31,949 bases of DNA from a virus: IMG/VR virus record IMGVR_UViG_3300022074_000214, positions 1 to 31,949 of that record; one strand, 5' to 3'. Positions 3,759 to 31,949 of the stretch are shown here, one piece after another; the stretch's first letter is position 1; each line of letters starts with the position of its first letter. Under the pieces are notes generated by a model. It worked only from the letters and a program-made list of their open reading frames with translations. It searched no databases and was not told where the DNA came from. A program made the position numbers and the translations under genes.

Positions 3759-3794
3759 TTGTGCGTTGCGTTGCAAACATGCATAGGGTTATTA
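3759..3794 (+). promoter_or_regulatory. Promoter-like region before the head operon
   Basis: This stretch lies between the terL hairpin and the 3814 start and begins with the 10-mer TTGTGCGTTG (3759-3768), which recurs before the fibre operon at 16871. One reading gives a -35 of TTGCGT (3766-3771) and a -10 of TTATTA (3789-3794) with a 17-base spacer; both are weak matches to the sigma70 consensus. The common GATTAGCATG at the start codon is also shared with the 16914 gene. The promoter role is inferred. Confidence 0.4.
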
Positions 3795-16600: not shown

Positions 16601-16870
16601 TTAAATATTGCTGGAAACCTTGGTGTCGATACTCCAATACCTCCAAAATTTGTTAGCCCTAATAAAGATGAGCGTATGATGGATGCGTTTATTGAGCCAT
16701 TTGGCGCACCAGCTGCATTAGCTGTTGAGTATGGTAGGGCATTAAGAGATTTTACAAATGGTGATGTATCTGATGGTGCTGATCGATTGAAGTATGCATT
16801 ACCATTTATTGGCTTGCCCATAATTCGTGATGATATGCGCGAGTTTGTTGGCAGTGTTGGACGTAATTGA
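13658..16870 (+). CDS. Large internal virion protein (T7 gp16-like)
   Basis: At 1070 residues this is the largest protein in the window and ends the internal virion set. T7 gp16 (1318 residues) spans the inner membrane and has an N-terminal transglycosylase. Here the N-terminus (W-W-E-G-Y-K-A-N-V-A-Y near residue 24) has no recognisable lytic transglycosylase motif, in keeping with the shorter length. Hydrophobic or Gly/Ala-rich segments occur near 110-150 and 640-680, and the charged stretch near 400-450 has coiled-coil character. ATG 13658 or 13661 may be used. No dedicated cell-wall hydrolase is therefore visible in the internal core. Confidence 0.82.
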   Translation: MMDIGRRDFFVPIPAAISEETPVSWWEGYKANVAYNNMPLIERVEEERLFGSVDIDPEFDVASNISEELLPYYDDLVRAKNAQHLAYLEERAFTAIERRRVAAEAGITAQLAGGITDPLALASLIPGFQFIKAGQTFGQAVIRGAGAGLAFGLASEARRAPFAVADEPYEAASNIVMSTALSAGFGGLMRAAPYTKPFFQSTASKMGRLYRGEKFKHVWADDATNLDDGYTAGSGGDFDTTQVNWMGSPSQRAMQRGDLPDEVKQYYASLSYNGAVSTQGARQGRAFQSVAQEAQTFIGQFERVNQTMRDLHSQQVRGIAKAARVGTIYNPMSGFDDWASDTIRRYILSNSTDPRLSRLGKDGMTDQQKEAGVLLGDLFKSFSDDMHYTGLVKNNERLGKIITKNQADLDKVTQKLADLEDSIKKGRGATKKQSAFRDALDNRQNTLRDRIDFYESQIDKPLRSNFVFPIFYDKGKLALDEPRFALTNIFADDYKMQRLANGEDADDFLAFSDAERTLSRIMQEDGEEMENILRSADKAGRAKHLKQRKTNIDVAKVVDYIHADMEALYTYIDRMGRQISFANKFGGRNIDEVLEDLDDALMRSGKNPKERSRLLADFYGDYERVMGTLQRSPDRWDNQAAKAAKAWTGWTFLPLAGVSAITDTGSIVMAHGMKDVIAAGMAATDTAFTGKVIREAQFSGELFDLAKNVYAREMLNDTARKVKPNLNERVIQRGNQIMYTANLLAPITFGGKTLDQFVTNNKFIKLSRQWADGKISLFDREYLARYGIDEDMAKFIAKAPTEKHDRFDFEFANTDAWDQSTPAAREVLRKYQAALASHANNTIVMGQTFDKPLIVDGVAYIRDNPFFQAVRKRFPSQFPIEERLRTGNENMVRIESGLMTLPFTFMNFAFGANNKILGAIRDPNRRYRLQGIAALIGLSYLSLSMKKPDYWFEKRDNPEIIARIIDHSGVLGIYSDLAYTGLNIAGNLGVDTPIPPKFVSPNKDERMMDAFIEPFGAPAALAVEYGRALRDFTNGDVSDGADRLKYALPFIGLPIIRDDMREFVGSVGRN

Positions 16871-16902
16871 TTGTGCGTTGTGTAGTGCATTATTGCTATG
16901 AT
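16871..16902 (+). promoter_or_regulatory. Putative promoter of the tail-fibre operon
   Basis: The 43-base gap before 16914 contains TTGTGCGTTG (16871-16880) and an extended -10 TGC-TATGAT (16894-16902). TTGTGC could be the -35, but the spacer would be 20 bases, so the extended -10 probably dominates. AGGGG just before the ATG gives the ribosome site. The same 10-mer and GATTAGCATG occur before the 3814 operon. Confidence 0.55.
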
Positions 16903-16913
16903 AGGGGATTAGC

Positions 16914-17687
16914 ATGACTATTAATTTAAGTGATAACAACCCTCGTATATCGTACACTGTCGCGGCTGGCGTTACTCAGTCTGCGTTTGTTGTGCCGTTT
17001 GAGTTCTTTGAGGATGAAGACCTTAACGTATATGTTGATGAAACTCTTCAAACATTAACAACGAAATACACAACTGCTGATGATTCTGGCAATACCATTG
17101 CACACACATCAGGCACGACTGGTTATATTCACTTTACATCAGGTAATGAAGTTACTGGCATATCTGGTGGCAGCAAGGTTGTTATAACACGCGATGTTGA
17201 GCTTGAGCGTGTAACTGACTTCCCAACATCTGGCCCATTTGATGTCGCCACTTTAAATACAGAGCTTGATAAGTTTATAGCAATTGCAGCTGACCTTGAT
17301 GACGCTGTAGGTCGTACTATTCGTTTGACAGATTACGATACAACTGGTGCTTTAAATCTTGAGTTGCCATCTGCATCTGATAGAGCTGGAAAATTCCTAT
17401 CATTTGACGCAAGTGGCACGCCAATTGTTGCTTCATCTTCTGGTGACTACAAAGGTGCTTGGTCGGCTGGCGTTGCTTATGCTGTAGGAGACACAGTTAC
17501 AGACACAACAACAAACAATGTGTATCGGGTTAGTGCGGCTCACACATCTGCTGGTGTGTTGCCATTAGATACAAATGTAAATTCATCTAATTATGTTTTG
17601 TTCATTGATGTTGCCACATTGCAAACATCATTGATTGAAAGTGTGGCGGCTGATACCGCTACAGCATTGGCAATAGCGTTAGGATAA
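16914..17687 (+). CDS. Tail fibre adaptor with T7-fibre N-terminal domain
   Basis: In this 257-residue protein, residues 1-130 carry the T7 gp17 N-terminal (nozzle-binding) pattern: 'I-S-Y-T-V-A-A-G-V-T-Q-S-A-F-V-V-P-F-E-F-F', then 'I-T-R-D-V-E-L-E-R-V-T-D-F' and 'D-V-A-T-L-N-T-E-L-D-K'. A second domain near 185-225 has W-S-A-G-V-A-Y-A-V-G-D-T-V and N-N-V-Y-R-V-S-A-A-H, like small carbohydrate-binding modules. It has no long fibre shaft, so it probably anchors the separate receptor-binding proteins encoded just downstream. Confidence 0.85.
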   Translation: MTINLSDNNPRISYTVAAGVTQSAFVVPFEFFEDEDLNVYVDETLQTLTTKYTTADDSGNTIAHTSGTTGYIHFTSGNEVTGISGGSKVVITRDVELERVTDFPTSGPFDVATLNTELDKFIAIAADLDDAVGRTIRLTDYDTTGALNLELPSASDRAGKFLSFDASGTPIVASSSGDYKGAWSAGVAYAVGDTVTDTTTNNVYRVSAAHTSAGVLPLDTNVNSSNYVLFIDVATLQTSLIESVAADTATALAIALG

Positions 17688-22485: not shown

Positions 22486-23503
22486 TACACAAATAAGAGA
22501 AGCAGTTAAACTTTATGAAGAGCATGGAACATTCAAAGCCGCTAGTGAAGCTAGCGGTATTCCTTTAAATACTCTTCATAACCGTTACATTAAAGCTAAT
22601 CAGCTTGAAGAGAATAGACCTCTTGATCATCCGGCATACGAACTTACGCCGCTGCCGCATGATGATATACCAGTTGATCAGATAGTTGATCAGCTGCACG
22701 GCAGATTTAAGAAGCGCAAAGCCAACAAAGAAGCAAAGAAATGGATACCGATTAAGATGAAATCGGATGAACCCATTGGCTTGCTGTGGATGGGCGACCC
22801 TCACATCGATGATAACTATTGCGACTGGGATTCATTACGCTCACACCTGGCTTTAATTCAGTCTACACCGGGCATGTTTGGTTGTAACCTAGGTGACTAC
22901 CAGAATAACTGGGTAGGCCGCCTAGGACGCTTGTACGGCGAACAAGACACATCTCATAAAACGGCATGGCGTTTGGTTGAGTGGTTAATTCAAGAGATGA
23001 ACCCGCTTATTCTCATTGGCGGCAATCATGACATGTGGTCTGGTGCTAGTGATCCCCTTAAATGGCTTGCTAGCCCTCATGCCATCCTTGAGGATTGGGA
23101 AGCTCGTGTTGAGTTGCAGTTTCCTAACGGCAGAAACTGTCGCATCCATGCCGCGCACGACATGCCGGGCCACTCCCAATGGAATGCTCTTCATGCTCAG
23201 AATAAGATGGCGCGATTCAAGAGCAATGCTTCGCTGTATATCAGTGGACACAAGCACAACTGGGCGTTGGGTCAGATCGAACTGGTGGAAGAGGAAACCA
23301 CAACTTGGCTTGCTCGTGCCAGAGGATACAAATACCACGACACCTATGCGTTCACCAAAGGATTTGAACAGCAGAAGTTTGGGCAAGCTATCCTTCAAGT
23401 CATTGACCCTCATAACACTAGTCCTGTTTCATGGGTACAATGTTTTGCTGATCCTCATGATGGCGCAGACTACCTTCAATATCGCAGATCGCTTCGTAAG
23501 TAA
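22472..23503 (+). CDS. HTH domain plus metallophosphoesterase
   Basis: This 343-residue protein starts with an HTH-like segment (about 8-45: A-V-K-L-Y-E-E-H-G-T-F-K-A-A-S) of the type used in DNA recognition. After a basic linker comes a calcineurin-like phosphoesterase: 'M-G-D-P-H-I-D' (about 106-112), 'L-G-D-Y', 'G-G-N-H-D-M-W' , 'H-A-A-H-D' and 'S-G-H-K-H-N-W', the metal ligands in the expected order. The substrate could be a nucleic acid end or a nucleotide; the family is diverse. It is unusual for this gene to follow the lysozyme. Its 3' end overlaps a minus-strand gene by 86 bases. Confidence 0.9.
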   Translation: MTLCDTQIREAVKLYEEHGTFKAASEASGIPLNTLHNRYIKANQLEENRPLDHPAYELTPLPHDDIPVDQIVDQLHGRFKKRKANKEAKKWIPIKMKSDEPIGLLWMGDPHIDDNYCDWDSLRSHLALIQSTPGMFGCNLGDYQNNWVGRLGRLYGEQDTSHKTAWRLVEWLIQEMNPLILIGGNHDMWSGASDPLKWLASPHAILEDWEARVELQFPNGRNCRIHAAHDMPGHSQWNALHAQNKMARFKSNASLYISGHKHNWALGQIELVEEETTTWLARARGYKYHDTYAFTKGFEQQKFGQAILQVIDPHNTSPVSWVQCFADPHDGADYLQYRRSLRK

Positions 23504-23735
23504 TAGCAGAATAGCCAGCTATATCTAGCCAGCTGTCAGCTGATCTGTCAGTCTTCATTCTTGCTATCTTTAGCAGCATCATCATAATGCCTACATCCTG
23601 TACGCTGAACCCTGTGCCTTTGTATTCTGACCATAGGTTGGCAATGTTCTGTAAGTTGTATGATGCGCTGCCGTAGTTGTCTCCACGGTTGACGACTATC
23701 TCTTGCACTTTTTCAAGGAATTGTTTTTTATTCAT
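23418..23735 (-). CDS. DUF6378-like conserved phage protein
   Basis: This 105-residue protein starts M-N-K-K-Q-F-L-E-K-V and has 'V-N-R-G-D-N-Y-G-S-A', 'D-V-G-I-M-M-M-L-L-K-I-A-R' and 'D-S-W-L-D-I-A-G-Y-S-A-I'. That pattern is typical of a small helical phage family I know as DUF6378 (name from memory). It probably belongs to the all-alpha NTP-pyrophosphatase-like fold group, though this is uncertain. ATG 23735 is chosen because AGGA lies upstream and it overlaps the previous gene. It is the last gene of the minus-strand block and its end runs antisense into the 22472 gene. Confidence 0.8.
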   Translation of the reverse strand: MNKKQFLEKVQEIVVNRGDNYGSASYNLQNIANLWSEYKGTGFSVQDVGIMMMLLKIARMKTDRSADSWLDIAGYSAITYEAICDIEGSLRHHEDQQNIVPMKQD

Positions 23736-23955
23736 AGCTTTGCCATCCTGTATGTACTGTTGTTGCTTTTGGATAATAGCGTTGATGATCCTCATCAACT
23801 ACATCATCAGCAAATGCGTCAGGTTCAAACATCTCAGACCATTTGGCTTGGCTTTTTAGTGCTTGTTCTTTCTGGTAGCTTTCATGAAAGTTACGCAGCA
23901 TTCTGCCTTTGTCAGACAGGTCTTCATCTTTTGTTTTGAATCGTGTAAGTCCCAT
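23728..23955 (-). CDS. Small hypothetical protein
   Basis: This 75-residue charged protein starts M-G-L-T-R-F-K-T-K-D. GGAGG lies 6 bases before the ATG at 23955, which decides against an upstream in-frame ATG at 23967. The middle is helical (S-Y-Q-K-E-Q-A-L-K-S-Q-A-K) and the end acidic then aromatic. It overlaps the DUF6378-like gene by 8 bases. A hairpin (23974-24000) lies just upstream and may reduce its expression relative to the recombination genes. No family recognised. Confidence 0.7.
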   Translation of the reverse strand: MGLTRFKTKDEDLSDKGRMLRNFHESYQKEQALKSQAKWSEMFEPDAFADDVVDEDHQRYYPKATTVHTGWQSYE

Positions 23956-23973
23956 AGATACCTCCATAGAAAA

Positions 23974-24000
23974 GGGAAGGGCAGTTAGCCTACCCTTCCC
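23974..24000 (-). terminator. Hairpin after the SSB-like gene
   Basis: GGGAAGGG (23974-23981) pairs with CCCTTCCC (23993-24000). Read on the minus strand the stem is followed by TTTTCT, so it is a reasonable factor-independent terminator for the 25699-24022 operon. It ends only a few bases before the GGAGG of the 23955 gene, so readthrough is needed to express the last two genes unless another promoter exists. Confidence 0.65.
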
Positions 24001-24021
24001 TGATATTAATTGAAAGTGTTT

Positions 24022-24411
24022 TTAGAAGGGGATAGTGTCATCCAGACTTTGGCTGACAGCTGGGCTAGGTGCAGCTGCTTGCGGTGAGCCACCCTGCTTT
24101 GCTTCGCGCTTGAGTGACAGATACTTTGTACCCTTCTCTGATTCTGATCTCCATGCTGCTAGGCGCATATCGCCATCCATTGGGCCAGAGTATGCTGGCT
24201 GCTTGTTGGCGTCTGTTGCATCTTCATTCATGTACAGTACACCCACACGCTGATACACAACAAAGACATCGCGTCCCTGTTTGTCTGTGTCTGTGACAAG
24301 GGCAAGAGACTTCTTGCCTTCACCATCGAAGTCTAGACTGCCTGTTAATAGCAAGCGTTGTTGCTCCATTGGGGGGAATACAGCCCCCCGGTTTGTGTTA
24401 TCGTAATCCAC
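24022..24411 (-). CDS. SSB-like protein with acidic DDTIPF tail
   Basis: This 129-residue protein begins with GTG at 24411, giving M-D-Y-D-N-T-N-R-G-A-V-F, a conserved start for a DUF736-like/OB-type family (from memory). An 'L-A-A-W-R-S-E-S-E-K-G-T-K-Y-L-S-L-K' strand pair comes later. A Pro/Ala/Ser-rich linker leads to the end D-D-T-I-P-F, which copies the acidic Phe-ended tail of bacterial SSB used to recruit repair partners. It follows ERF with a TAGTG overlap. It probably binds ssDNA during recombination and replication; the fold call is tentative, the tail is clear. Confidence 0.75.
   Translation of the reverse strand: MDYDNTNRGAVFPPMEQQRLLLTGSLDFDGEGKKSLALVTDTDKQGRDVFVVYQRVGVLYMNEDATDANKQPAYSGPMDGDMRLAAWRSESEKGTKYLSLKREAKQGGSPQAAAPSPAVSQSLDDTIPF
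24371..24389 (-). other. G6/C6 hairpin inside early codons of the SSB-like gene
   Basis: GGGGGG (24371-24376) and CCCCCC (24384-24389) can form a 6-bp stem with a 7-base loop, at codons 8-14 of the 24411 gene and just before an internal ATG. Such a stem in the ribosome footprint may lower or couple translation from the GTG start. Effect inferred. Confidence 0.5.
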
Positions 24412-24884
24412 TAAAATGCCTCCTTGTTGGCTGTGGGTTTAACATGCACGACTGTGCTGCGAGAACCTTTTGATGCCTCGTTTGCATCATCATCTTCTGA
24501 TGGCAAGCCGAGTGCAGATTGTAGGCCGTACCGTTTGGCATATGTAATGCCGCTACCCATCTTCTGTGGGTCAGTTGGGTCTTTGGAACGGATAGGTGTG
24601 CGTGATACACGCTGCTCACCAGATGGCGCGTGTATCAGCACAGTGCGTACAAACGTCATACCAGTGTCACCATTGAACTCAAAGTCAATCTCTTGAGTGA
24701 AGCAGATACCAAACTGTGTGGCTTGTGTGGCTGCTTCAATCACTGCTTCTAATGAAGCATAGTTGTTTTTGAAGTGTGGGTTCTTCGAATCTTTGCTGGC
24801 TTTAATTGCCAGCTTTTGGAACTCAAGCAATGCTTGAGCCAGATTCTGTGGGGCTGCGGATGCAGCTTTAGGTTGTTGTGCCAT
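24411..24884 (-). CDS. erf: ERF-family single-strand annealing protein
   Basis: This 157-residue protein shows the ERF family pattern: 'N-P-H-F-K-N-N-Y-A-S-L-E-A-V-I-E-A', 'G-I-C-F-T-Q', 'H-A-P-S-G-E', 'D-P-Q-K-M-G-S-G-I-T-Y-A-K-R-Y-G-L' and the acidic 'E-D-D-D-A-N'. It anneals complementary ssDNA in phage recombination, working with the exonuclease upstream and the SSB-like protein downstream. ATG 24884 is preferred since GAGGT lies at proper distance; ATG 24890 is too close to it. It starts three bases after the exonuclease stop. Confidence 0.92.
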   Translation of the reverse strand: MAQQPKAASAAPQNLAQALLEFQKLAIKASKDSKNPHFKNNYASLEAVIEAATQATQFGICFTQEIDFEFNGDTGMTFVRTVLIHAPSGEQRVSRTPIRSKDPTDPQKMGSGITYAKRYGLQSALGLPSEDDDANEASKGSRSTVVHVKPTANKEAF

Positions 24885-24886
24885 GA

Positions 24887-25699
24887 TCATACCTCATTTG
24901 CTTCTGGCTTGATTGTAATGCGACAAGCACCGCGCTTGTCACGCTTGATAGTTAGTAGGTCACAGAACACTTCACGTTCATCATCCATGATTAGTGACTT
25001 TAATTCTTTCTTACATGTTTCATGCTCTTTGGCTTTGGCTACAGTCATTACATAGTCATGTGCCAGTGACATGAAGTGGTTGTCGTTGTTAGCATCTCTG
25101 GCTTTGAGGCCATCGATCTTGACCTTTGACCAGTCAATCTTCCATGTGTCTACATCATAACTAGGCTCGGTCTTGCTAGTGACTAACTGCCAGAACTCCT
25201 GACAACGCTTGACAACTACATCAAAGTAGTCTTGGTCAAACTCGATACGAGCATACTCAATCTCATTGCCAAAGATTACTGTAAGGTATGCGCTGTCAAT
25301 CTTAGACAGTGCCATGTACAGCTGCACCTGTGGCATGTATGTGTCCAGCATGTCGGATATCGATCTGTTGCTGCTGGTGTGCTTGGCTTCGATGATTGAT
25401 GTGAGGCCATCTTCCGAGACAGCAATGCCATCGACTGTACCTTTGAATGGTACACCATGTATCACTTCTCTGAACTCATGCTGCGTCATAACCTCTGACC
25501 CATCAACACCACCATGTCCTGTATCCTGACAGAACCATGCAATGTTGAACGCCTCAGTGTATGTACCCAGCCTGACCTTGAAGATGTGATCAAGCTCTAC
25601 AGGCTGCTGCTTGCCCATCTTGACCATCCACAATTCGTGCCAGTCTCCACGCATAATGCTGTAAAGATCTGAGCCTCCGATAAATCCTACTCTATTCAT
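24887..25699 (-). CDS. YqaJ-like recombination exonuclease (PD-(D/E)XK)
   Basis: This 270-residue protein starts with M-N-R-V-G-F-I-G-G-S-D-L and 'H-E-L-W-M-V-K-M-G', the classical start of YqaJ/lambda-exo nucleases. The catalytic set is 'G-T-V-D-G' with 'I-I-E-A-K-H-T' (the D and ExK), followed by 'Y-M-P-Q-V-Q-L-Y-M-A' (Q motif). It resects dsDNA ends to give ssDNA for ERF. GGAGGTACT precedes the ATG. Just upstream lies a region with two inverted repeats and an operator-like site, so this gene heads its own operon. Confidence 0.9.
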   Translation of the reverse strand: MNRVGFIGGSDLYSIMRGDWHELWMVKMGKQQPVELDHIFKVRLGTYTEAFNIAWFCQDTGHGGVDGSEVMTQHEFREVIHGVPFKGTVDGIAVSEDGLTSIIEAKHTSSNRSISDMLDTYMPQVQLYMALSKIDSAYLTVIFGNEIEYARIEFDQDYFDVVVKRCQEFWQLVTSKTEPSYDVDTWKIDWSKVKIDGLKARDANNDNHFMSLAHDYVMTVAKAKEHETCKKELKSLIMDDEREVFCDLLTIKRDKRGACRITIKPEANEV

Positions 25700-25717
25700 A
25701 GTACCTCCTATGTCTAT

Positions 25718-25763
25718 GGTGGTGTGACTTCGCGGTGAATATTTTGGATGTAGTCACACCACC
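25718..25763 (-). promoter_or_regulatory. 12-bp inverted repeat in the exonuclease leader
   Basis: GGTGGTGTGACT (25718-25729) and AGTCACACCACC (25752-25763) are perfect complements separated by 22 bases. On the minus strand this forms a hairpin about 20 bases before the exonuclease ATG. It could be a repressor site or an RNA stem controlling translation. Confidence 0.75.
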
Positions 25764-25817
25764 TATCGACCAGACAAGCCGTCACAAGTTACACCCAAAA
25801 TATGCTGCATTGTTGCA
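25739..25817 (-). promoter_or_regulatory. Operator and promoter-like region of the recombination operon
   Basis: A second inverted repeat pairs 25739-25752 with 25790-25803 (13 of 14 bases). Next to it, on the minus strand, TGCAACAATGCA (25806-25817) is followed by CATATT (25799-25804), in the same arrangement as the TATAAT promoter at 29577. No good -35 is visible, so the promoter may need activation or be weak. Confidence 0.5.
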
Positions 25818-25841
25818 CACAAATTTATGTATTGCAAACAG

Positions 25842-26141
25842 TTATCGAAACCTTGAATGTGCTACGATCTTTTTGATTAGGCCATCCACATCGATGGGCT
25901 GGCCTAATCTTTCTTTTCTAGTGACGAAGTATTGCAATGATGCGATGGCTGGCTTGCTTCGATCATGACGCCAATGAGATAATTTCGTGGCATCGGCAAT
26001 GAAACTATCCACAGTATAACCCAGAGCAAGCAGCTTAGAAGCAAGATGTTCCTGACGCATGTCATAACGAAATCCTTTGCCCCAAATACTATTCACTAGC
26101 TCTTGATACTTTAAGCATAGTTCACGTTCATTATTGTCCAT
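25842..26141 (-). CDS. Hypothetical protein
   Basis: This 99-residue soluble, basic, helical protein contains M-D-N-N-E-R-E-L-C-L-K at the start and 'W-R-H-D-R-S-K-P-A-I-A-S-L-Q-Y-F-V' in the centre. That stretch somewhat resembles C-terminal parts of replication accessory proteins, but no family is claimed. It overlaps the wHTH gene by 11 bases and ends before the operator region of the exonuclease operon, so it shares the 26500 promoter. It has a weak ribosome site, so coupled translation is likely. Confidence 0.7.
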   Translation of the reverse strand: MDNNERELCLKYQELVNSIWGKGFRYDMRQEHLASKLLALGYTVDSFIADATKLSHWRHDRSKPAIASLQYFVTRKERLGQPIDVDGLIKKIVAHSRFR

Positions 26142-26448
26142 TGTAGTTTATCTTTGACCACATCACCAGCTGCTGTCTGCCAGACTTGCCTTTGCGTTTT
26201 GTTCCATCAACAATTACAAGCCCCTTTTCTTTCAGCTGTTTGTATCTTGCTGTTACTGTGCTGTACCTAATGTGTGGCATGTGGTCTAAAACATCATCAG
26301 ATATGCAACCATTTGGAAACATATTGATTGCTTGCAACACTTTCTTTTCCATTCGTGTAACGTCAAGCTGCTCGGCAGCTGCGTGACTTGTAGATGGATC
26401 GTCATTGCGCACTAATTTGTATGCTGGTGTTTCAAATAGATTATTCAT
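26131..26448 (-). CDS. Winged-helix DNA-binding protein
   Basis: This 105-residue protein starts M-N-N-L-F-E-T-P-A-Y-K-L, with TAAGGAGG five to eight bases upstream of ATG 26448. That decides against the longer frame from 26604. The start includes 'N-D-D-P-S-T-S-H-A-A-A-E'. The core (about 35-85) has 'I-S-D-D-V-L-D-H-M', 'S-T-V-T-A-R-Y-K-Q-L-K-E-K-G-L-V' and a basic wing 'K-R-K-G-K-S-G-R-Q-Q'. It is probably a regulator or a replication-linked DNA binder. A strong promoter with two palindromes lies directly upstream. Confidence 0.8.
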   Translation of the reverse strand: MNNLFETPAYKLVRNDDPSTSHAAAEQLDVTRMEKKVLQAINMFPNGCISDDVLDHMPHIRYSTVTARYKQLKEKGLVIVDGTKRKGKSGRQQLVMWSKINYNGQ

Positions 26449-26466
26449 GCAAACCTCCTTACTTGT

Positions 26467-26508
26467 TGCATATATGCAGTATACATATCCTGTTGACAAA
26501 TTCAACAG
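26467..26508 (-). promoter_or_regulatory. Promoter with two palindromic operators
   Basis: On the minus strand, -35 TTGAAT (26500-26505) and -10 TATACT (26478-26483) are 16 bases apart, near consensus. CTGTTGA-N5-TCAACAG (26490-26508) is a perfect 7+7 palindrome covering the -35, and TGCATATATGCA (26467-26478) is a perfect 12-base palindrome just after the -10. Two repressors, or one repressor and one more factor, could act here. Confidence 0.75.
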
Positions 26509-26581
26509 CTTCTGTCCATCATGATTCCGAGGCAATGTGTGTGGCCTCGTCATCATGAAGTACCTCAGTTGGCTGGATCGT

Positions 26582-26917
26582 TTACCTCCCTGCGATCCAG
26601 CCAATTATTTTTGCAGCTAATGGATTGCTGGCTTCGATACATATAAAGTTAGGGCCAGACTTTTGCTTCAGCAAATATATATCTGCTGGCTGTTCATTGT
26701 GCGTTGTGGTTAGGAAACTAAACCCACGCCCTTTTGCTTGATACTTAGATTCAGCAATTAAAACTCCGGCAGGGGTTTCGATCTGGATGTCTCCGGCAAA
26801 CTTGCCACCCAGCTGTCCCGAGAGAGGCTGCCTTTCCGCTTTGGCCCCGCGAGTTTCGAGCCACTTGACCCACCATCTTTCGTGGTAGCTTCCTTTACTG
26901 CGCTGAGATGTTCCCAT
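26582..26917 (-). CDS. Holliday junction resolvase-like nuclease (PD-(D/E)XK)
   Basis: This 111-residue protein starts M-G-T-S-Q-R-S-K-G-S with GGAGA about 10 bases before. The motifs 'E-R-W-W-V-K-W-L-E-T-R-G', 'E-R-Q-P-L-S-G-Q-L-G-G-K-F-A-G-D-I-Q' and 'V-L-I-A-E-S-K-Y-Q' give the E, D and ExK residues in the order seen in Hjc-type resolvases and related small nucleases. It may resolve branched DNA before packaging, fitting with the exonuclease-ERF cassette. The first 160 bases overlap the upstream zinc-ribbon-like gene in another frame. Confidence 0.72.
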   Translation of the reverse strand: MGTSQRSKGSYHERWWVKWLETRGAKAERQPLSGQLGGKFAGDIQIETPAGVLIAESKYQAKGRGFSFLTTTHNEQPADIYLLKQKSGPNFICIEASNPLAAKIIGWIAGR

Positions 26918-27060
26918 CCATGCTTCTCCATACAATCAAGACACCAAGTATTGTTGTTGCCAGTAATAACAAACCAATTGGTTGTGATATTGCAGTGACC
27001 ACAAGTTGCTGCGTATCCAATTCTATTTCTTTTTGATTTCGATCTTTGCTTCGAGGGCAT
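26758..27060 (-). CDS. Zinc-ribbon-like small protein
   Basis: This 100-residue protein starts M-P-S-K-Q-R-S-K-S-K-R-N-R, has C-G-H-C (about 20-23) and C-L-D-C (about 40-43) separated by 16 residues, which suits a single zinc ribbon, and then 'H-G-W-E-H-L'. The last half is low-complexity basic sequence that lies antiparallel in coding sense to nothing but overlaps the nuclease gene in another frame, so its length may be partly accidental. A -1 shift would join the two frames, but no slippery heptamer is evident. Confidence 0.5.
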   Translation of the reverse strand: MPSKQRSKSKRNRIGYAATCGHCNITTNWFVITGNNNTWCLDCMEKHGWEHLSAVKEATTKDGGSSGSKLAGPKRKGSLSRDSWVASLPETSRSKPLPEF

Positions 27061-27268
27061 CTAACCAACATATAAGTAAGAAGTTTGAGGGAACACGCTT
27101 GTATTGTTCCCACTTGTGTACGAGTGATGAGGCGCAGCCGATGCGATCAGCTAGCTCTTCTTGTGACCAGCCACGATCATTGCGCAATGAGACTAATCCG
27201 CAGACTACTGAGTGCCAGCTGTTACTAATCTCTTTGGGTTTGCTGTAATGCGTAAACTCTGATCGCAT
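27023..27268 (-). CDS. HTH (XRE-type) regulator
   Basis: This 81-residue protein has a clear HTH of the Cro/CI class in residues 25-60: 'L-R-N-D-R-G-W-S-Q-E-E-L-A-D-R-I-G-C-A-S-S-L-V-H-K-W-E'. It lies in a block of small regulators and overlaps the 27422 gene by 44 bases. AAGG lies 8 bases before the ATG. It could be a Cro-like partner of the neighbouring small DNA-binding protein. No dimerisation or cleavage domain is present. Confidence 0.82.
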   Translation of the reverse strand: MRSEFTHYSKPKEISNSWHSVVCGLVSLRNDRGWSQEELADRIGCASSLVHKWEQYKRVPSNFLLICWLDALEAKIEIKKK

Positions 27269-27422
27269 TCATAACCTTCTTGGCTGTTGACAAACGTAAA
27301 TCGCCACCAGCTAACGTCCTATAGTAAGTGCTAGTAGGTACGTTAGCCAGTCGAAACGCTTTGAGAATTGATAGGTTGCAGTCAGATGCAGCTGCAATAA
27401 GTTGATCCATATATGTTTTCAT
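27225..27422 (-). CDS. Small repressor-like HTH protein, perhaps leaderless
   Basis: This 65-residue protein contains 'I-L-K-A-F-R-L-A-N-V-P-T-S-T-Y-Y-R-T-L' and 'L-R-L-S-T-A-K-K-V-M-N-A-I', the spacing of a lambda-repressor-type HTH followed by a helix. The first base of the ATG (27422) lies seven bases beyond a -10-like TAACGT, with no ribosome site, so the transcript might start at or beside the start codon. It is the best candidate for the regulator of the TGCAT-type sites. Family not proven. Confidence 0.68.
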   Translation of the reverse strand: MKTYMDQLIAAASDCNLSILKAFRLANVPTSTYYRTLAGGDLRLSTAKKVMNAIRVYALQQTQRD

Positions 27423-27428
27423 GCATGG

Positions 27429-27458
27429 ACGTTACTGCATGTTTGCTACATCTGACAA
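27429..27458 (-). promoter_or_regulatory. Promoter-like region of the small repressor
   Basis: On the minus strand, TTGTCA (27453-27458) and TAACGT (27429-27434) are 18 bases apart. Between them lies AGCAAACATGCA (27436-27447), a relative of the TGCATTTATGCA site at 29584. The -10 is poor, so the promoter may be weak or self-regulated. Confidence 0.45.
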
Positions 27459-27465
27459 GAGGTAT

Positions 27466-27747
27466 TTATTCTTCTTTGTTTAAGTGAAACAAATTAGTCA
27501 CTGCTGCTGCGCCATCTATTAGCTTGTGCATCTGGTCTACTGTCACTGTATTAGCACCATAGTGTTGCAGGTCTTCACCTATATCGTTTGATGCTTTGAC
27601 TAATTCATCCACAGCCTCAAGCATTGATGGGTATTTGTTTTCGATTGAGAATAAAAGTGCTGACCTAACAGCCGCTTCTTTTTCTCTTTCTTTTTCATAG
27701 TATTCTATACGTTCTTCATGCGTCATTTCATGTAGTTCTTTTGCCAT
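27466..27747 (-). CDS. Hypothetical helical protein
   Basis: This 93-residue protein is Glu/Lys-rich at its start (M-A-K-E-L-H-E-M-T-H-E-E-R) and mainly helical, with 'L-L-F-S-I-E-N-K-Y-P-S-M-L' and 'M-H-K-L-I-D-G-A-A-A-V'. The ATG at 27747 overlaps the DnaA-like gene stop (TAATG), and GGACGG lies upstream. An earlier in-frame ATG at 27810 lies inside that gene and is rejected. No known domain. It may be translationally coupled to the DnaA-like protein. Confidence 0.7.
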   Translation of the reverse strand: MAKELHEMTHEERIEYYEKEREKEAAVRSALLFSIENKYPSMLEAVDELVKASNDIGEDLQHYGANTVTVDQMHKLIDGAAAVTNLFHLNKEE

Positions 27748-28067
27748 TACTTTACCGTCCCTTCTGGCAGTCCTAAGTATGTTACTGTTTTGTGCAGCTG
27801 ATTGCTCCATTGTGAATCAAGAAACCTATGCTTGGTTTTTTTATAGCCATGCATAACAGTTGAGTGATCCTTGTTGATGAACCTACCAATCTCACTGTAA
27901 CTCTTGTCGCAACACTTAGTCGCTATCCAATAGTAGATAAATCTAGCGTCTACTATTCTCCGCTCCCGGCGGTTAGACATAAGCTCGTGTGTTTCTACAT
28001 CATTCATGTAGCAAACAGCATCAACCACTTGCCGCAGCCGGGGAAACTTTGGTTTAGATTGATCCAT
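27747..28067 (-). CDS. DnaA domain IV-like DNA-binding protein
   Basis: This 106-residue protein has a core 'R-E-R-R-I-V-D-A-R-F-I-Y-Y-W-I' then 'S-Y-S-E-I-G-R-F-I-N-K-D-H-S-T-V-M-H-G-Y-K-K', matching the C-terminal DNA-binding domain of DnaA (the DHSTV signature), with no AAA+ ATPase part. ATG 28067 is chosen because GAGGTG lies 6 bases upstream and it forms a TGATG overlap. Such stand-alone domains might mark an origin, compete with host DnaA, or act as repressors. No perfect DnaA box was found in the window. Confidence 0.9.
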   Translation of the reverse strand: MDQSKPKFPRLRQVVDAVCYMNDVETHELMSNRRERRIVDARFIYYWIATKCCDKSYSEIGRFINKDHSTVMHGYKKTKHRFLDSQWSNQLHKTVTYLGLPEGTVK

Positions 28068-28285
28068 CACACACCTCGCAGTATCACTGCCCATGCTTCA
28101 TGTATCTTGGCACCATCATTATCTTTATGTCGTGCATACTGTGAAACGATTGGCCCAATGGTTGCGCATGCCTCTGCCCAAGTCATCATCTGTTGAGTTG
28201 GTGCAGTGCGGCTGTCGAACTCAAACACATTCACACCATTGGCTGAGTATGTGTGGTCGAATACATCATCGAATCGTGGTGTCAT
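28067..28285 (-). CDS. Small hypothetical protein
   Basis: This 72-residue protein starts M-T-P-R-F-D-D-V-F-D-H-T-Y with GGAGGG about 8 bases upstream, so 28285 is preferred to ATG 28297. The second half is helical ('W-A-E-A-C-A-T-I-G-P-I-V-S-Q-Y'). It overlaps both neighbours by a few bases. No family recognised; its place in the early block next to the DnaA-like gene suggests a replication or takeover role, not shown by sequence. Confidence 0.7.
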   Translation of the reverse strand: MTPRFDDVFDHTYSANGVNVFEFDSRTAPTQQMMTWAEACATIGPIVSQYARHKDNDGAKIHEAWAVILRGV

Positions 28286-28500
28286 GATACCCTCCATACA
28301 CGATAGCCGCCATCTCTTTGTGCGCGTATTGCACCTTTGCCAAGCGCATGCCTTCTTGCAATAGAGTTGCTAAGTGCGACAGCATCTTTTAATGTGTCAA
28401 CGAATACTGAATCGCCCTCTTGCATTGCTTCTATAGTTTCAGAAAATTTTCCGCAACGACCCCTTTTCTCTTGGAGTGGAATATTCTTTTCGATCTTCAT
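28282..28500 (-). CDS. Small conserved phage protein
   Basis: This 72-residue protein starts M-K-I-E-K-N-I-P-L-Q-E-K-R-G-R and contains 'M-Q-E-G-D-S-V-F-V-D-T' and the end 'G-G-Y-R-V-W-R-V'. This pattern (ExGDSxFV ... YRVWR) is frequent in small proteins of early phage operons as I recall them, with unknown function. GGAGGT and a TAATG overlap support ATG 28500. The size and beta-alpha pattern suggest a compact DNA mimic or binding protein, but that is speculation. Confidence 0.75.
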   Translation of the reverse strand: MKIEKNIPLQEKRGRCGKFSETIEAMQEGDSVFVDTLKDAVALSNSIARRHALGKGAIRAQRDGGYRVWRVS

Positions 28501-28736
28501 TACGCTACCTCCTTGCCATCAATCATAGCCTGATGATCTTCATGTGGTGTGACGTGCTTATCTTCCCATGCTGTAACAGCACGGTCGAGGAACATTTCAC
28601 GCTTGAAGTTTGGATTGGTTTGGTCGAGATGGTCAGCCATCCGATCGATGTCGGATGGATGTCCCATCAGTGGGCCAAAGAAATCAGCAACGAACTCGAA
28701 GTGCTGCCGTGTGAATCGTGGATATTTGTCAGCCAT
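28500..28736 (-). CDS. Small conserved phage protein
   Basis: This 78-residue protein starts M-A-D-K-Y-P-R-F-T-R-Q-H-F-E-F-V-A with AAGGAGG upstream, deciding for ATG 28736 rather than the much longer frame from 28880. The centre has 'H-P-S-D-I-D-R-M-A-D-H-L' and 'N-P-N-F-K-R-E-M-F'. The 'YPRFT..HFEF.A' start recurs in small phage proteins of unknown function. It stops in a TAATG overlap with the next gene. Confidence 0.75.
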   Translation of the reverse strand: MADKYPRFTRQHFEFVADFFGPLMGHPSDIDRMADHLDQTNPNFKREMFLDRAVTAWEDKHVTPHEDHQAMIDGKEVA

Positions 28737-28746
28737 TAGTACCTCC

Positions 28747-28932
28747 TTATATGTAGTTTGGCTCATCGTCATAGACTTCACCGAAGTCTGACCATTCTTG
28801 TTCCCAGTCAGGTTGACGCTCGTCTTGAGCGTCAGCCTCTTTGTTGTAGCATTCGCACTCGCCGCTGCGCACCTCGGCATAGCCGCAGTTCATTTCGCAG
28901 TCAGCTTCAACGATTGGTGGTGGCGTCATCAT
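28747..28932 (-). CDS. Small Cys-rich acidic protein
   Basis: This 61-residue protein has four Cys in its first half (D-C-E-M-N-C-G and G-E-C-E-C), which could hold a metal, then an acidic, Trp-containing end (Q-E-W-S-D-F-G-E-V-Y-D-D-E). GGAGAGGT precedes two adjacent ATG codons (28932 and 28929). The acidic tail gives it a strong net negative charge, so a DNA-mimic or zinc-binding role is possible. No family recognised. It overlaps the stop of the 29093 gene. Confidence 0.6.
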   Translation of the reverse strand: MMTPPPIVEADCEMNCGYAEVRSGECECYNKEADAQDERQPDWEQEWSDFGEVYDDEPNYI

Positions 28933-29093
28933 ACCTCTCCTATGTCATAGATATCTATGTCATGCAGTTCTACATTACGATCTTCGATACCAACATTCGC
29001 TATTGCAATATCTCTAGCTTCTTCTTCTGTGTCAGCTTTAACTTGCATTCGTGTGCTTGATGTTAGTGTAAGTATTACATCGAATTGTTTCAT
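28929..29093 (-). CDS. DpnD/PcfM-like small protein
   Basis: This 54-residue gene starts M-K-Q-F-D-V-I-L-T-L-T. It has a short strand-helix-strand plan with 'V-K-A-D-T-E-E-E-A-R-D-I-A' in the middle, a common 'VxAxxxEEA' pattern of the DpnD/PcfM-like group, and an acidic end with D-I-D-I-Y-D. The ATG overlaps the stop of the 29554 gene (ATGA), and its own stop overlaps the next start. Function unknown. Confidence 0.68.
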   Translation of the reverse strand: MKQFDVILTLTSSTRMQVKADTEEEARDIAIANVGIEDRNVELHDIDIYDIGEV

Positions 29094-29554
29094 GCCAATG
29101 CCTCATGATGTTTCCATACGAATGGGCGATAGTCTTCCATATACCCATCAGGTGATGGTATGTCGGCTGCCTTAGAGAATGCAGTCATAATCTGTACATT
29201 GAATCGACTGCCAATGATGCGTATGTCATTGCGAACAGTTTCGATGTCAGTCTTGACATCAACTGTGTCACCATCTGGATTGCCGCCAAGCAGCAGCCCA
29301 CGCCCAGCCAGTGGTAGTGGGTAGTTCTTATGCATCCAGAAGTATTGATCATCGACAGAGTACAGGCCTTCATCATCGATATATACATGATCATCAATGA
29401 AGTCGTAGTCATCGACATGATAGAGACGGACGACATCAAACGCACTGCAATGATCGCCAATGGTGGGTGAGATGTCCTTCCAGCTGCCGCTAAAATCTAT
29501 TTCAGTAACAGCTGATTGACCTGTGACGGTCGGGTCTATTAGATATGCTTTCAT
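29090..29554 (-). CDS. DUF3846-like acidic phage protein
   Basis: This 154-residue protein starts M-K-A-Y-L-I-D-P-T-V and contains a very acidic Tyr/Asp-rich stretch (about 42-70), then 'P-L-P-L-A-G-R-G-L-L-L-G-G' and 'D-G-D-T-V-D'. The 'LAGRGLLLG' part resembles the DUF3846 type of early phage protein (from memory). The high acidity could suit a DNA-mimic or inhibitor, but this is an inference. GGAGG precedes the ATG. It is the first gene after the TATAAT promoter at 29577. Confidence 0.72.
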   Translation of the reverse strand: MKAYLIDPTVTGQSAVTEIDFSGSWKDISPTIGDHCSAFDVVRLYHVDDYDFIDDHVYIDDEGLYSVDDQYFWMHKNYPLPLAGRGLLLGGNPDGDTVDVKTDIETVRNDIRIIGSRFNVQIMTAFSKAADIPSPDGYMEDYRPFVWKHHEALA

Positions 29555-29576
29555 TTATAGTACCTCCTTGTGAACT

Positions 29577-29604
29577 ATTATACTGCATTTATGCAACTAA
29601 ACAA
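29577..29604 (-). promoter_or_regulatory. Strong sigma70-type promoter with internal operator
   Basis: On the minus strand, -35 TTGTTT (29599-29604) and perfect -10 TATAAT (29577-29582) are 16 bases apart. The spacer holds TGCATAAATGCA (29584-29595), near-palindromic, in the same place relative to the -10 as related sites upstream of two other operons. It should drive 29554 to about 27466 and be repressible. Confidence 0.8.
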
Positions 29605-29627
29605 GTCACATTATTCACAATTGCTTG

Positions 29628-30044
29628 CTAGTAAATAAACTTTCTATGCTTTGGCCTAGCAGCAAGAGTAAATCCGTATTTGCTATGGAATGTCAGTTTG
29701 CTTTTGTCTTCTCTTCCATCGCCAGTTTCATACCAGTATTTTCTGTCGGCACTGCCAACTGGTTGACTACGCAGTCGAAGCAAACCATTCTTTCGCTGCT
29801 GTCTTTTTTCTAGTTCGTGTTGCTTTTTCTCTTCTTCTTGCTTCATCATTTGAAACTTGTGATGATTGCTCCATGCTTGTGAGAAATACTTTGCAACCCA
29901 GTCAGCGAATTGATCAGCATCCATTTCTAAATGCTGATAATACTTGTCCATAATAGACAACGCTTCACTGTGTATTGTTGTGCGTTGTTTAGTGTCTTCT
30001 TGCAATTCTCTTCTTGCTCTATTGGGATTGTTTTTTTCACCCAT
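29628..30044 (-). CDS. Basic hypothetical protein
   Basis: This 138-residue protein starts M-G-E-K-N-N-P-N-R-A-R-R-E, with AAGGGGG 6 bases upstream, which decides for ATG 30044 over 30068. It has a long Lys/Gln/Glu helix in the centre (about 68-92) and a basic, aromatic C-terminus (K-Y-W-Y-E-T-G-D-G). No family recognised. A copy of TTGTGCGTTG lies inside it on the opposite strand (29978-29987). It ends before the 29577 promoter, so it belongs to the first minus-strand operon with 30055. Confidence 0.7.
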   Translation of the reverse strand: MGEKNNPNRARRELQEDTKQRTTIHSEALSIMDKYYQHLEMDADQFADWVAKYFSQAWSNHHKFQMMKQEEEKKQHELEKRQQRKNGLLRLRSQPVGSADRKYWYETGDGREDKSKLTFHSKYGFTLAARPKHRKFIY

Positions 30045-30054
30045 AGCAACCCCC

Positions 30055-30162
30055 TTACAAAGTTCCATCTTTGTGAGATTTATATATTTCCCACGCTACA
30101 CACGACCAGCTGACTATCATCAGCAGCATCGATAGATAAAATACGATTCCGAATAGTGACAT
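30055..30162 (-). CDS. 35-residue membrane peptide
   Basis: This short gene reads M-S-L-F-G-I-V-F-Y-L-S-M-L-L-M-I-V-S-W-S and ends in a basic K-S-H-K-D-G-T-L. It is essentially one transmembrane helix with a polar tail. AAGGAG lies just before the ATG, and a 10-bp hairpin lies before that. Single-helix peptides in early operons often affect membrane proteins, but no specific role can be inferred. The stop lies 10 bases before the next start. Confidence 0.62.
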   Translation of the reverse strand: MSLFGIVFYLSMLLMIVSWSCVAWEIYKSHKDGTL

Positions 30163-30371
30163 GATTTACTCCTTGTGAAGCGGGGCTGGCAGTGGTAATG
30201 CCAGCCCCTAGCGGTACGCGTCCAAATCTAAGGAAGTTGATTGGACATTTGATTTAGTTTGGTCACAGTCCTTTCTTTGTCTGTTGATGAAATGATTTGA
30301 AACGGTCGAAGTTCCTCACCAATAGTTACAGTTTAGTCAACCCCGGAGGGGACACAACGAGCCATAAAAAA
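30163..30371 (-). promoter_or_regulatory. Leader region of the 30162 gene with hairpin 30182-30208
   Basis: About 200 bases without a gene. GGGGCTGGCA (30182-30191) pairs perfectly with TGCCAGCCCC (30199-30208), a 10-bp stem with a 7-base loop, close to the ribosome site. CCAAATCTAA (30222-30231) and TTTAGTTTGG (30254-30263) form a looser inverted repeat. TTGACT occurs on the minus strand near 30340 but has no good -10. Confidence 0.55.
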
Positions 30372-30402
30372 GGCACGCTGAGAGGGAGAAGCTCAGCGTG
30401 CC
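30366..30402 (-). terminator. Rho-independent terminator, minus strand
   Basis: GGCACGCTGAG (30372-30382) pairs with CTCAGCGTGCC (30392-30402), an 11-bp perfect stem with a 9-base loop. On the minus strand it is followed by TTTTTT (30366-30371). It ends transcription from the 31025 gene before the early block. Confidence 0.93.
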
Positions 30403-30563
30403 AGTGGGGAGGAAAGTGTTGAGATCGGGGTGAGGCAGATTCCAAGAGGCGCAGCCGCCTGGAATCTGCCGAGCAGTTTCATATACAGCGTATATGCTGT
30501 GTCACCACATGCTCAGGTGGCAACGTAGTGTTAGCCCAGCCCCGAAGGGCTGGGCAGCAGCTG
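30403..30563. other. Structured intergenic region with two strong hairpins
   Basis: No gene is seen. GGCAGATTCCA (30434-30444) pairs with TGGAATCTGCC (30460-30470), 11 bp, with an inner GGCG/CGCC stem. GCCCAGCCC (30534-30542) pairs with GGGCTGGGC (30547-30555) around CGAA. A near-palindrome CAGC-GTATAT-GCTG lies around 30487-30500. The second hairpin directly follows the 30564 stop on the minus strand and may protect the mRNA end; the whole could also be a small RNA. Confidence 0.6.
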
Positions 30564-31025
30564 CTATGCAGCTGCGTATTTCTTCATCAACTCAGCTTTG
30601 CGCTTGGCATCAACTGATGATTGCTGCGGCTTGTTCTTCGGTGTGAAGGTATCGCCGGTGATGTCTTTGAACGTCTGCTTGTTCAGTGTGACATACTGTT
30701 GAAGCATCTCGATCTCGACCTCGATGTTCGTGATGCGTTCATCGATGCGGTCTAGCGCAATGTCATCGTAGTGCATTGCGCCTCGCACTGCGCCATACTT
30801 GGCGCAGATGGCGAGTGTGCCATCGCTCGGTGCTTCGTTAGCACCCGCGATGGTGATCGCATCGTCGACCAGCTGGTCACGGTCTTTGGTCTTTTGTGTG
30901 AGCAGCCATTCGGCTTGCTCAACTGCTTTGCGCAGTAGATTTTGAGTGATATAGATAGAACCTCTGTGACAGTCAGGAAAGACGCTGCTGAAAGCTGAAG
31001 TGAAGTGGTTAGTAGTCTTGCTCAT
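30564..31025 (-). CDS. Hypothetical helical protein
   Basis: This 153-residue protein starts M-S-K-T-T-N-H-F-T-S-A-F with AAGGAGG 9 bases upstream, so ATG 31025 is chosen over 31079. The centre has 'I-D-E-R-I-T-N-I-E-V-E-I-E-M-L-Q' (coiled-coil-like) and the end is Lys/Ala-rich. It is GC-rich compared with most of the window. It is followed by two hairpins and a terminator, so it is a single-gene transcription unit. No family recognised. Confidence 0.75.
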   Translation of the reverse strand: MSKTTNHFTSAFSSVFPDCHRGSIYITQNLLRKAVEQAEWLLTQKTKDRDQLVDDAITIAGANEAPSDGTLAICAKYGAVRGAMHYDDIALDRIDERITNIEVEIEMLQQYVTLNKQTFKDITGDTFTPKNKPQQSSVDAKRKAELMKKYAAA

Positions 31026-31057
31026 GATAAGCCTCCTTGTTGAGCTTGAGGGGATAA

Positions 31058-31201
31058 GCCCCCTCGGTAGATAGACCAATGCCGTGCAGCGGGGCGAGGA
31101 TCAAACCTCCTCACGGTTGGCGAAGCCAAGTGGTGCGGAGGACGGTTTGACAGCGCAGCGTCCACGCAACGAAGTGCGGCATGCAGGCTATCCGAGGGGG
31201 C
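31058..31201. ncRNA. Branched structured element (possible RNA or packaging signal)
   Basis: A closing helix pairs 31058-31067 with 31192-31201 (10 bp), 31071-31074 with 31188-31191, and 31079-31084 with 31177-31182. Inside are three hairpins: 31096-31100/31108-31112, TTGGC-GAA-GCCAA (31117-31129) and GGACG/CGTCC (31140-31144/31159-31163). The symmetry is clear in the DNA; whether it acts as RNA or as a protein-binding DNA site is unknown. Confidence 0.5.
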
Positions 31202-31248
31202 GTTCCCATCAAGCGGAGGAGGCGGTTCATGCAAGACGGATAACCACG

Positions 31249-31330
31249 CACACTCAGCGCATCAGCAAGTCTTTGCTGACACAGTGGTTCCTTGTGAGTG
31301 CTTTGTGAGAGACTTGCTGTGCGCAGTGTG
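31249..31330. repeat. Long bulged inverted repeat upstream of terS
   Basis: The right arm 31310-31330 pairs over 21 bases with CACACT (31249-31254), GCGCA (31257-31261) and CAGCAAGTCT (31263-31272), leaving only bulges CA and T. The 37-base loop is unpaired or weakly paired. It ends two bases before the TTGACA promoter of terS. Confidence 0.8.
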
Positions 31331-31332
31331 AG

Positions 31333-31362
31333 TTGACAACGAGTATTTGCGTGTGGCATAAG
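31333..31362 (+). promoter_or_regulatory. Promoter of the terS-like gene
   Basis: A perfect -35 TTGACA (31333-31338) is followed after 18 bases by CATAAG (31357-31362), four of six matches to the -10. Two runs of eight G (31362-31369 and 31375-31382) follow, so the mRNA would begin in or next to G8. Confidence 0.6.
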
Positions 31363-31401
31363 GGGGGGGACACAGGGGGGGGTTTGTGCAAGAGGTTGAG
31401 G

Positions 31402-31773
31402 ATGAGTAATCAGCTAGTCGTAACCGACAAACAAGCGCGGCTTGTGGATACCCTCGTAGCAACTGGCTGTAGTATCAAAGACGCCGCGCATGAAGCCGGT
31501 TATGCTAGCGGTGAGAGTGGTAGAGTGACAGCCAGCAAGACTTTGCGGCTGCCTCATGTGCAAGCGTATATGATGCAGAGAGTTGCAGAAACGCTCGGTC
31601 TGAATGCTACGACAGCCGCTGCGCGTCTCGTGCAGCTTGCTCAAGGGGCTAAGAGTGAGTATGTGCAGCTGGAAGCGAGCAAAGACATCCTCGACCGTGC
31701 TGGTTTCAAAGCCCCTGAGCGACACATGCACCTCCACGCTGGCGACATATCGGTGAGCATTGACCTGAGCTAG
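31402..31773 (+). CDS. terS: Terminase small subunit-like protein
   Basis: This 123-residue protein has an N-terminus 'V-T-D-K-Q-A-R-L-V-D-T-L-V-A-T-G' and 'I-K-D-A-A-H-E-A-G-Y' that forms an HTH of the terminase small subunit kind. After that come 'H-V-Q-A-Y-M-M-Q-R-V-A' and 'A-K-S-E-Y-V-Q-L-E-A-S-K-D-I-L-D-R-A-G', the helical oligomerisation part known in this group. The ATG at 31402 has AGAGG six bases before. It recognises packaging sites and recruits TerL (2172-3710). It lies in GC-rich, highly structured DNA, as expected of a packaging region. Confidence 0.85.
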   Translation: MSNQLVVTDKQARLVDTLVATGCSIKDAAHEAGYASGESGRVTASKTLRLPHVQAYMMQRVAETLGLNATTAAARLVQLAQGAKSEYVQLEASKDILDRAGFKAPERHMHLHAGDISVSIDLS

Positions 31774-31949
31774 TGCGTGGTGGTGCGCATAGCGGCGTGT
31801 GGACGTGCAACCCTAGCAGCGCAATGCGCTGCGCGTGTTGCAACCCACACAGGTTATATGTGTGTGTAGCCCTGCGATCCTAGATCGCGTCGGCTACACG
31901 GAGACTGGCGAATATATGCGTGGCAATTCGGTGCGGCATGGTGGTGGCT
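31774..31949 (+). other. Non-coding GC-rich end with hairpins
   Basis: No gene is recognised. TGCAAC (31806-31811) pairs with GTTGCA (31837-31842) around an inner GCAGCG/CGCTGC stem (31816-31821/31827-31832). GTGTAGCC (31864-31871) pairs with GGCTACAC (31892-31899) around GCGATC/GATCGC (31874-31879/31883-31888). CACACA and TGTGTG also pair nearby. It may be part of the packaging site; the window ends within it. Confidence 0.6.

Follow-up and report, generated by a model that had tools for sequence, protein, structure and literature searches.

TGCA palindromes at the promoters of an uncultured marine podovirus: probable operators of a Cro-type regulon with temperate ancestry

A palindrome with TGCA half-sites recurs at the minus-strand promoters of a virus record in IMG/VR, IMGVR_UViG_3300022074_000214, whose 31,949 nucleotides are the stretch analysed here (the window). 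The sites lie before an early operon, before the operon of a 65-aa Cro-like helix-turn-helix (HTH) protein, before a recombination operon and before a gene for a winged-helix-like protein. That they form a real operator family shared by early, regulatory and recombination promoters, as a first-pass annotation of the same DNA had proposed, is strongly supported by their conservation in related phages, and the sequences most likely describe a Cro-type repressor regulon, of known type, inherited from temperate kin. The features of this region on which the argument turns are as follows.

24,887-25,699, minus strand: RecE-like (YqaJ) exonuclease (PHROG 434, E=9.5e-30; Pfam YqaJ), a proposed regulated gene
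25,799-25,804, minus strand: -10-like hexamer CATATT, one base downstream of the 25806 operator
25,806-25,817: operator TGCATTGTTGCA, intergenic, before the RecE-like exonuclease/Erf/SSB operon
26,131-26,448, minus strand: winged-helix-like protein (weak MarR and Penicillinase_R matches below cut-off), a proposed regulated gene
26,467-26,478: operator TGCATATATGCA, intergenic, before gene 26131-26448
26,478-26,505, minus strand: core promoter at the 26467 operator, with -35 TTGAAT (26500-26505) and -10 TATACT (26478-26483)
27,023-27,268, minus strand: 81-aa XRE-family HTH protein (Pfam HTH_31/HTH_3), second gene of the cro operon
27,225-27,422, minus strand: 65-aa Cro-like HTH protein, the proposed operator-binding repressor
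27,429-27,458, minus strand: promoter of the Cro-like gene, with -35 TTGTCA (27453-27458) and -10 TAACGT (27429-27434)
27,436-27,447: imperfect operator TGCATGTTTGCT, within the Cro-like gene promoter
29,090-29,554, minus strand: first gene of the early operon, with no family match in PHROG or Pfam
29,577-29,582, minus strand: -10 hexamer TATAAT, one base downstream of the 29584 operator
29,584-29,595: operator TGCATTTATGCA, intergenic and conserved, before the early operon that begins with gene 29090-29554

The sites, their promoters and their conservation

The four sites listed by the first-pass annotation are present and intergenic under an explicit gene model, and the hexamers CATATT, TAACGT and TATAAT that it had placed beside three of them each begin one base downstream. 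At these three promoters (P25806, P27436 and P29584) the operator occupies -25 to -14. Its fourth pairing, of 26467 with TATACT, holds as well, the hexamer overlapping the upstream edge of the site. Across the family set, a TATAAT-like hexamer (at least four of six bases) stands one base past 31% of oriented sites, versus 2-15% at other offsets. The sites are palindromic and overlap core promoters, and asymmetric repeats in one orientation, of the L5 stoperator type, are not what is found.

Each promoter retains its site in relatives. The 25806 operator is kept as TGCAAYAATGCA at the orthologous promoter of all relatives having the region, down to about 72% DNA identity, with the hexamer (CATATT, CATGTT or TATGTT) in the same relative position. 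At 26467 the relatives carry TGCATAYATGCA, the longest invariant block of that promoter; TATAC/TGCATAYATGCA is contiguous and invariant in six aligned promoters, and the -35 in relatives is TTGAT-like. The 18-nt spacer of the Cro-like gene promoter contains the operator, six bases separate its -10 from the ATG at 27422, and a perfect TGCATAGATGCA occupies the equivalent place in L016, L018, L019 and L030. At the early promoter, relatives have TGCA-G-TATAAT (L005, L006, L008) or TGCA-GC-TATACT (L015, L019), and the operator is doubled in register (TGCA-N4-TGCA-N4-TGCA) in L009, L010 and L013. Where the orthologous promoters come from clades sharing 72-80% identity with the window, few blocks are invariant; the operator is one of them, but the four bases at its centre and the sequence on either side of it vary.

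The motif had been given as TGCAT-N3-TGCA, a form that does not survive comparison: the fifth base varies (TGCAATAATGCA in many relatives, for example), leaving TGCA-N4-TGCA as the invariant core and TACTGCAT-NN-ATGCAGTA as the consensus averaged over both strands. The window holds four exact copies (3772, 25806, 26467 and 29584), all in the 7.4% of its length that is intergenic, where 0.15 would be expected; none of 3000 Markov simulations of intergenic DNA attained four. Because TGCA pairs at spacing 9 (five in the window) equal those at spacing 8 in abundance, the window by itself would not decide the matter; the relatives do. Using the exonuclease, the DnaA-like protein and the 65-aa protein as queries, we retrieved about 100 distinct related viral contigs, and in a non-redundant set of 26 operator-bearing loci (filtered at 90% identity; 284 kb) we counted 117 copies of the motif where the frequency of TGCA predicts 12.8. 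The excess is confined to N4, other spacings from 0 to 24 giving 5-36 copies, and other four-base palindromes at N4 spacing are near expectation. In seven more distant exonuclease-bearing loci, including Pelagibacter phage Hodr, there are 2 copies against 2.1 expected. About 64% of the family sites fall outside open reading frames of at least 80 codons; when other spacings or single TGCA words are taken as controls, the share is 8-22%. The genome-wide motif search that the first-pass annotation had suggested thus favours the exact form, intergenic throughout the window and enriched in relatives, but not the form with one mismatch, which shows no excess over the whole window (19 observed, 25 expected); the test was therefore made on exact spacing. 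A literature search for the operator sequence returned no match.

The claim that the sites lie only before minus-strand genes fails, since two of them precede plus-strand genes:

3,772-3,783: exact site TGCAAACATGCA, between terL and plus-strand gene 3814
16,886-16,897: imperfect site TGCATTATTGCT, one mismatch, between 13658-16870 and plus-strand gene 16914-17687

The evidence for the 3772 site is weaker: G002 has it and G007 has TGCATTAATGCA, but G001 and G003 have degenerate versions and G005 has none. The place of the 16886 site holds TGCATTGTTGCT in G001 and G002 and an exact TGCATTAGTGCA or TGCATTACTGCA in G003 and G007. Overall, the late junctions of G003 and G007 carry exact or one-mismatch sites, and G001 and G005 have no site at the terL junction. 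Because sites stand at these plus-strand late-gene junctions, the repressor may control late promoters as well, though the support for this is weaker. Both sites lie a few bases past a conserved element, TTGTGCGTTG, that occurs on the plus strand after terL (3759-3768), before the major capsid gene (7033-7042) and before gene 16914 (16871-16880); it is shared by G001, G002, G003, G005 and G007, is absent in Hodr, and is probably a late promoter or activator box.

Two side observations belong to these promoters. Upstream of the 26467 operator (26484-26560, minus strand) lie an inverted repeat, GTTGA-N5-TCAAC (ATTGA-N5-TCAAT in L016), and a TCATGA-hairpin-TCATGA block that is retained in relatives although its sequence changes. 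A DnaA-box-like TTATTCACA lies at 29612-29620, about 20 bp upstream of the 29584 operator, and 27747-28094 encodes a DnaA domain IV protein without the ATPase domain (PF08299).

The 65-aa protein as candidate repressor

Which protein would read these sites? The 27225 product is likely the best candidate ligand. Its AlphaFold2 model (pLDDT 92) has helices at 4-14, 19-25, 30-37 and 44-64, the second and third forming a lambda-repressor-like HTH, and its Foldseek neighbours are HipB, 434 Cro (TM 0.64) and SinR. In and around the recognition helix (30-37), P29, S31, T32, Y34 and R35 do not vary among 18 relatives with identities as low as 37%, which fits the invariant half-site. A hidden Markov model of the Cro-like family finds a match in all operator-bearing loci in which the region is covered, and in the seven operator-less loci it finds none. 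Throughout this family (37-100% identity) the gene nearly always has a site in its own promoter, in most cases 13 nt before the ATG. We had noted this pattern in earlier relatives and then fetched 31 further distinct promoters by protein similarity alone; 26 have an exact site, and in 24 it lies exactly 13 nt before the ATG. Cro promoters of three clades and of the held-out loci share TTG....NGCA-N4-TGCA-G-TAnnnT-N6-ATG, a register in which transcription would begin on, or directly beside, the A of the ATG. There is no Shine-Dalgarno sequence, and the Cro-like mRNA would be leaderless. A search of 50,697 phage records gave no match to this gene.

The neighbouring 81-aa XRE protein might bind the operators instead, alone or together with the 65-aa protein, and it has a recognisable HTH and is encoded together with the Cro-like protein in every operator-bearing locus that includes this part of the genome. 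We nevertheless think this unlikely: homologues occur in five of the seven operator-less loci (Hodr and four others), the gene has no operator of its own, and its conserved part (the HTH and a distinctive C-terminal segment) is alike in operator-bearing and operator-less groups. It is the near-universal site in its own promoter, set against the presence of 27023 homologues in phages without sites, that favours the 27225 product. The two genes share a 44-nt overlap (27225-27268), which is retained in distant relatives. The DnaA domain IV protein and the winged-helix protein were also considered as binders and rejected, each being missing from many operator-bearing loci, an absence weakened by the partial loci among them.

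Several points weigh against the assignment. An operator does lie in the candidate's own promoter in the window, the arrangement of autoregulation, but it carries one mismatch there. The operator's outer GTA accounts for part of the apparent start of the -10. A Pfam search finds nothing in the window's 65-aa protein and no Foldseek match reaches E<0.001, its likeness to known structures being one of fold only. The co-occurrence of site and Cro-like gene is strong but not independent, the loci being phylogenetically related, and the distant Cro promoters L221, L224, L227, L229 and L240 have a degenerate site at another distance. Finally, in kin that bear a CI repressor, CI may be the main ligand of the sites.

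On balance it is very probable that the 65-aa protein is the repressor of a Cro-type regulon and that the sites are its operators; binding, repression and timing by this protein we infer from sequence patterns. A dimer would bind the TACTGCAT-NN-ATGCAGTA palindrome, DNA bearing TACTGCATNNATGCAGTA being what the 27225 product is expected to recognise, and would block RNA polymerase at the overlapped core promoters. Its targets would be its own operon (27436), the early operon (29584), the recombination operon (25806) and the 26131 gene (26467). These promoters would fire soon after infection and be turned down as the protein accumulates, the Cro-like promoter last because its operator is imperfect.

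Temperate kin and the lifestyle of the window phage

The first-pass annotation had considered a common operator unexpected in a supposedly lytic podovirus. The sites are real, and the surprise is answered by kin that combine the same operators and Cro-like gene with an integrase and a CI-like repressor, from whose temperate line the circuit was most likely inherited. A tyrosine integrase of about 320 aa (PF00589) occurs in G003, G004 and 11 further contigs having the operators and the Cro-like gene. In these lineages a CI-like repressor, with an HTH and weak S24/UmuD-like C-terminal matches, is encoded divergently beside cro (seen in L103, L108, L041, L084, L117 and others), and the DNA between the two genes contains one or two operators. 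L101 has a candidate attP: immediately downstream of its integrase gene, a 47-bp segment (7590-7637) matches the 3' part of tRNA-Gly(GCC) and recurs with 1-3 mismatches in three metagenome-assembled genomes (MAGs), one of these matches being called tRNA-Gly by ARAGORN.

An integrase (PF00589, PF00239) is absent from the window phage (G000) and from G001, G002, G005 and G006, all records of 32-35 kb, and the window has no CI-like homologue. Comparison with L024 indicates that the window is nearly a whole genome, missing a few hundred bases between its two ends, and the expected position of CI beside cro is contiguous sequence. In the exonuclease tree (unrooted, with some long branches) the window's clade, lacking both genes, groups with lineages that have both, and the distribution of CI and integrase needs three changes. 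The simplest reading of these sequences is that CI and integrase were lost in the window's clade. Whether this marine podovirus clade went on from a temperate to a lytic life with its operator network retained, a selectively maintained Cro-only regulon now re-used by itself to time the passage from early to late expression by braking the early and recombination promoters, and perhaps the late ones too, is to us an evenly balanced question.

The window phage might alternatively be temperate without an integrase, for instance as a plasmid-like prophage, with the 65-aa protein as its sole immunity repressor. The DnaA domain IV protein, the DnaA-box-like sequence near 29612 and the persistence of operators without CI are in keeping with this, but we recognised no partition or plasmid replication genes, and no relative of the Cro-like gene was found in 84,980 bacterial and archaeal genomes; we regard such a lifestyle as quite improbable. 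A search of genomes for a host by way of the major capsid protein reached only phage-like contigs of MAGs, mostly filed as alphaproteobacteria, with others in one gammaproteobacterial, one euryarchaeal and one Opitutae bin. G007, a 58,582-base IMG/VR contig (loci L138-L140), was considered as a provirus and rejected, being two related phages joined head to tail, with repeats 91-94% identical, an assembly product.

Other readings of the sites and comparison with known systems

The regulon reading also has to be set against other readers of the palindrome. If the sites bound an activator, or extended the promoters for recognition by some phage- or host-encoded factor, this would account for the fixed one-base gap to the -10 at three promoters, with the site at -25 to -14, and for the weak -35 boxes at 25806 and 29584. 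A single activator position is incompatible, however, with the overlap of -10/+1 at 26467 and at several promoters of kin; the cro promoter has a conserved -35 TTG, and the sites between CI and Cro are operator-like. We therefore consider this reading very unlikely. Less plausible still is that the phage exploits a host regulator whose half-sites are TGCA: dispersed promoter sites could report host state, but the sites track the phage Cro-like gene and not host-related genes, and they are missing from phages that lack a Cro-like gene although their exonucleases and structural genes are homologous. Chance recurrence of a short palindrome, for which only the random frequency of one-mismatch matches across the window speaks, is ruled out for practical purposes by conservation, N4 enrichment in the 26 loci, intergenic bias and the held-out Cro promoters.

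The Cro-type regulon proposed here resembles the lambdoid Cro/CI systems (lambda, 434) in its small HTH Cro, its palindromic operators overlapping core promoters, its autoregulation and, in kin, the placing of operators between cro and the divergent gene of a CI-like repressor. It differs from the lambdoid OR/OL triplets in having single or paired sites of 12-18 bp dispersed at four to eight promoters, and the window's clade lacks CI and integrase. In lambda the leaderless gene is cI, transcribed from PRM, whereas here it is Cro. Mycobacteriophage L5 gp71 likewise is one repressor acting at many dispersed sites, but its stoperators are asymmetric and act mostly on elongation, in contrast to the palindromic, promoter-overlapping sites described here. 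Some virulent Streptococcus thermophilus phages retain remnants of a lysogeny module (for example Sfi19 compared with Sfi21), and like Sfi19-type phages the window's clade would have retained a Cro-type gene after loss of integrase and CI; it belongs to another phage group, and its whole operator set is kept and conserved. The closest cultured relative by portal protein, Pelagibacter phage EXVC031P Hodr (OQ414635; 62% identity, with a homologous exonuclease at 36%), has no TGCA-N4-TGCA site, no Cro-like gene and, like the window, no integrase.

For a family of uncultured marine podoviruses, these results outline a complete network of repressor and operators that is open to testing, with a putative operator code that sets the recognition helix PTSTYYR against TGCA half-sites. 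Because the family has lineages with and without CI and integrase that carry the same operators, it lends itself to parallel study of this code and of the change from temperate to lytic life, and the signature of operator plus leaderless cro should allow temperate kin to be recognised in metagenomes.

Two further elements accompany the recombination genes and their surroundings. The exonuclease leader (25700-25805, minus strand) forms a conserved structured RNA with a pseudoknot, in which UUUUGGGUG pairs with the loop CAYCCAAAA; across 11 sequences its 26 pairs are paired in 100% of cells, six of them with two-sided changes, compared with 40-51% in slid controls. Rfam gave no credible match in 23500-31949, this leader included, and the RNA is possibly a translational control element of recE. 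At 26569-26604, at the end of the RusA-like gene, lies a 12-bp inverted repeat (TTGGCTGGATCG...CGATCCAGCCAA) that may be a terminator.

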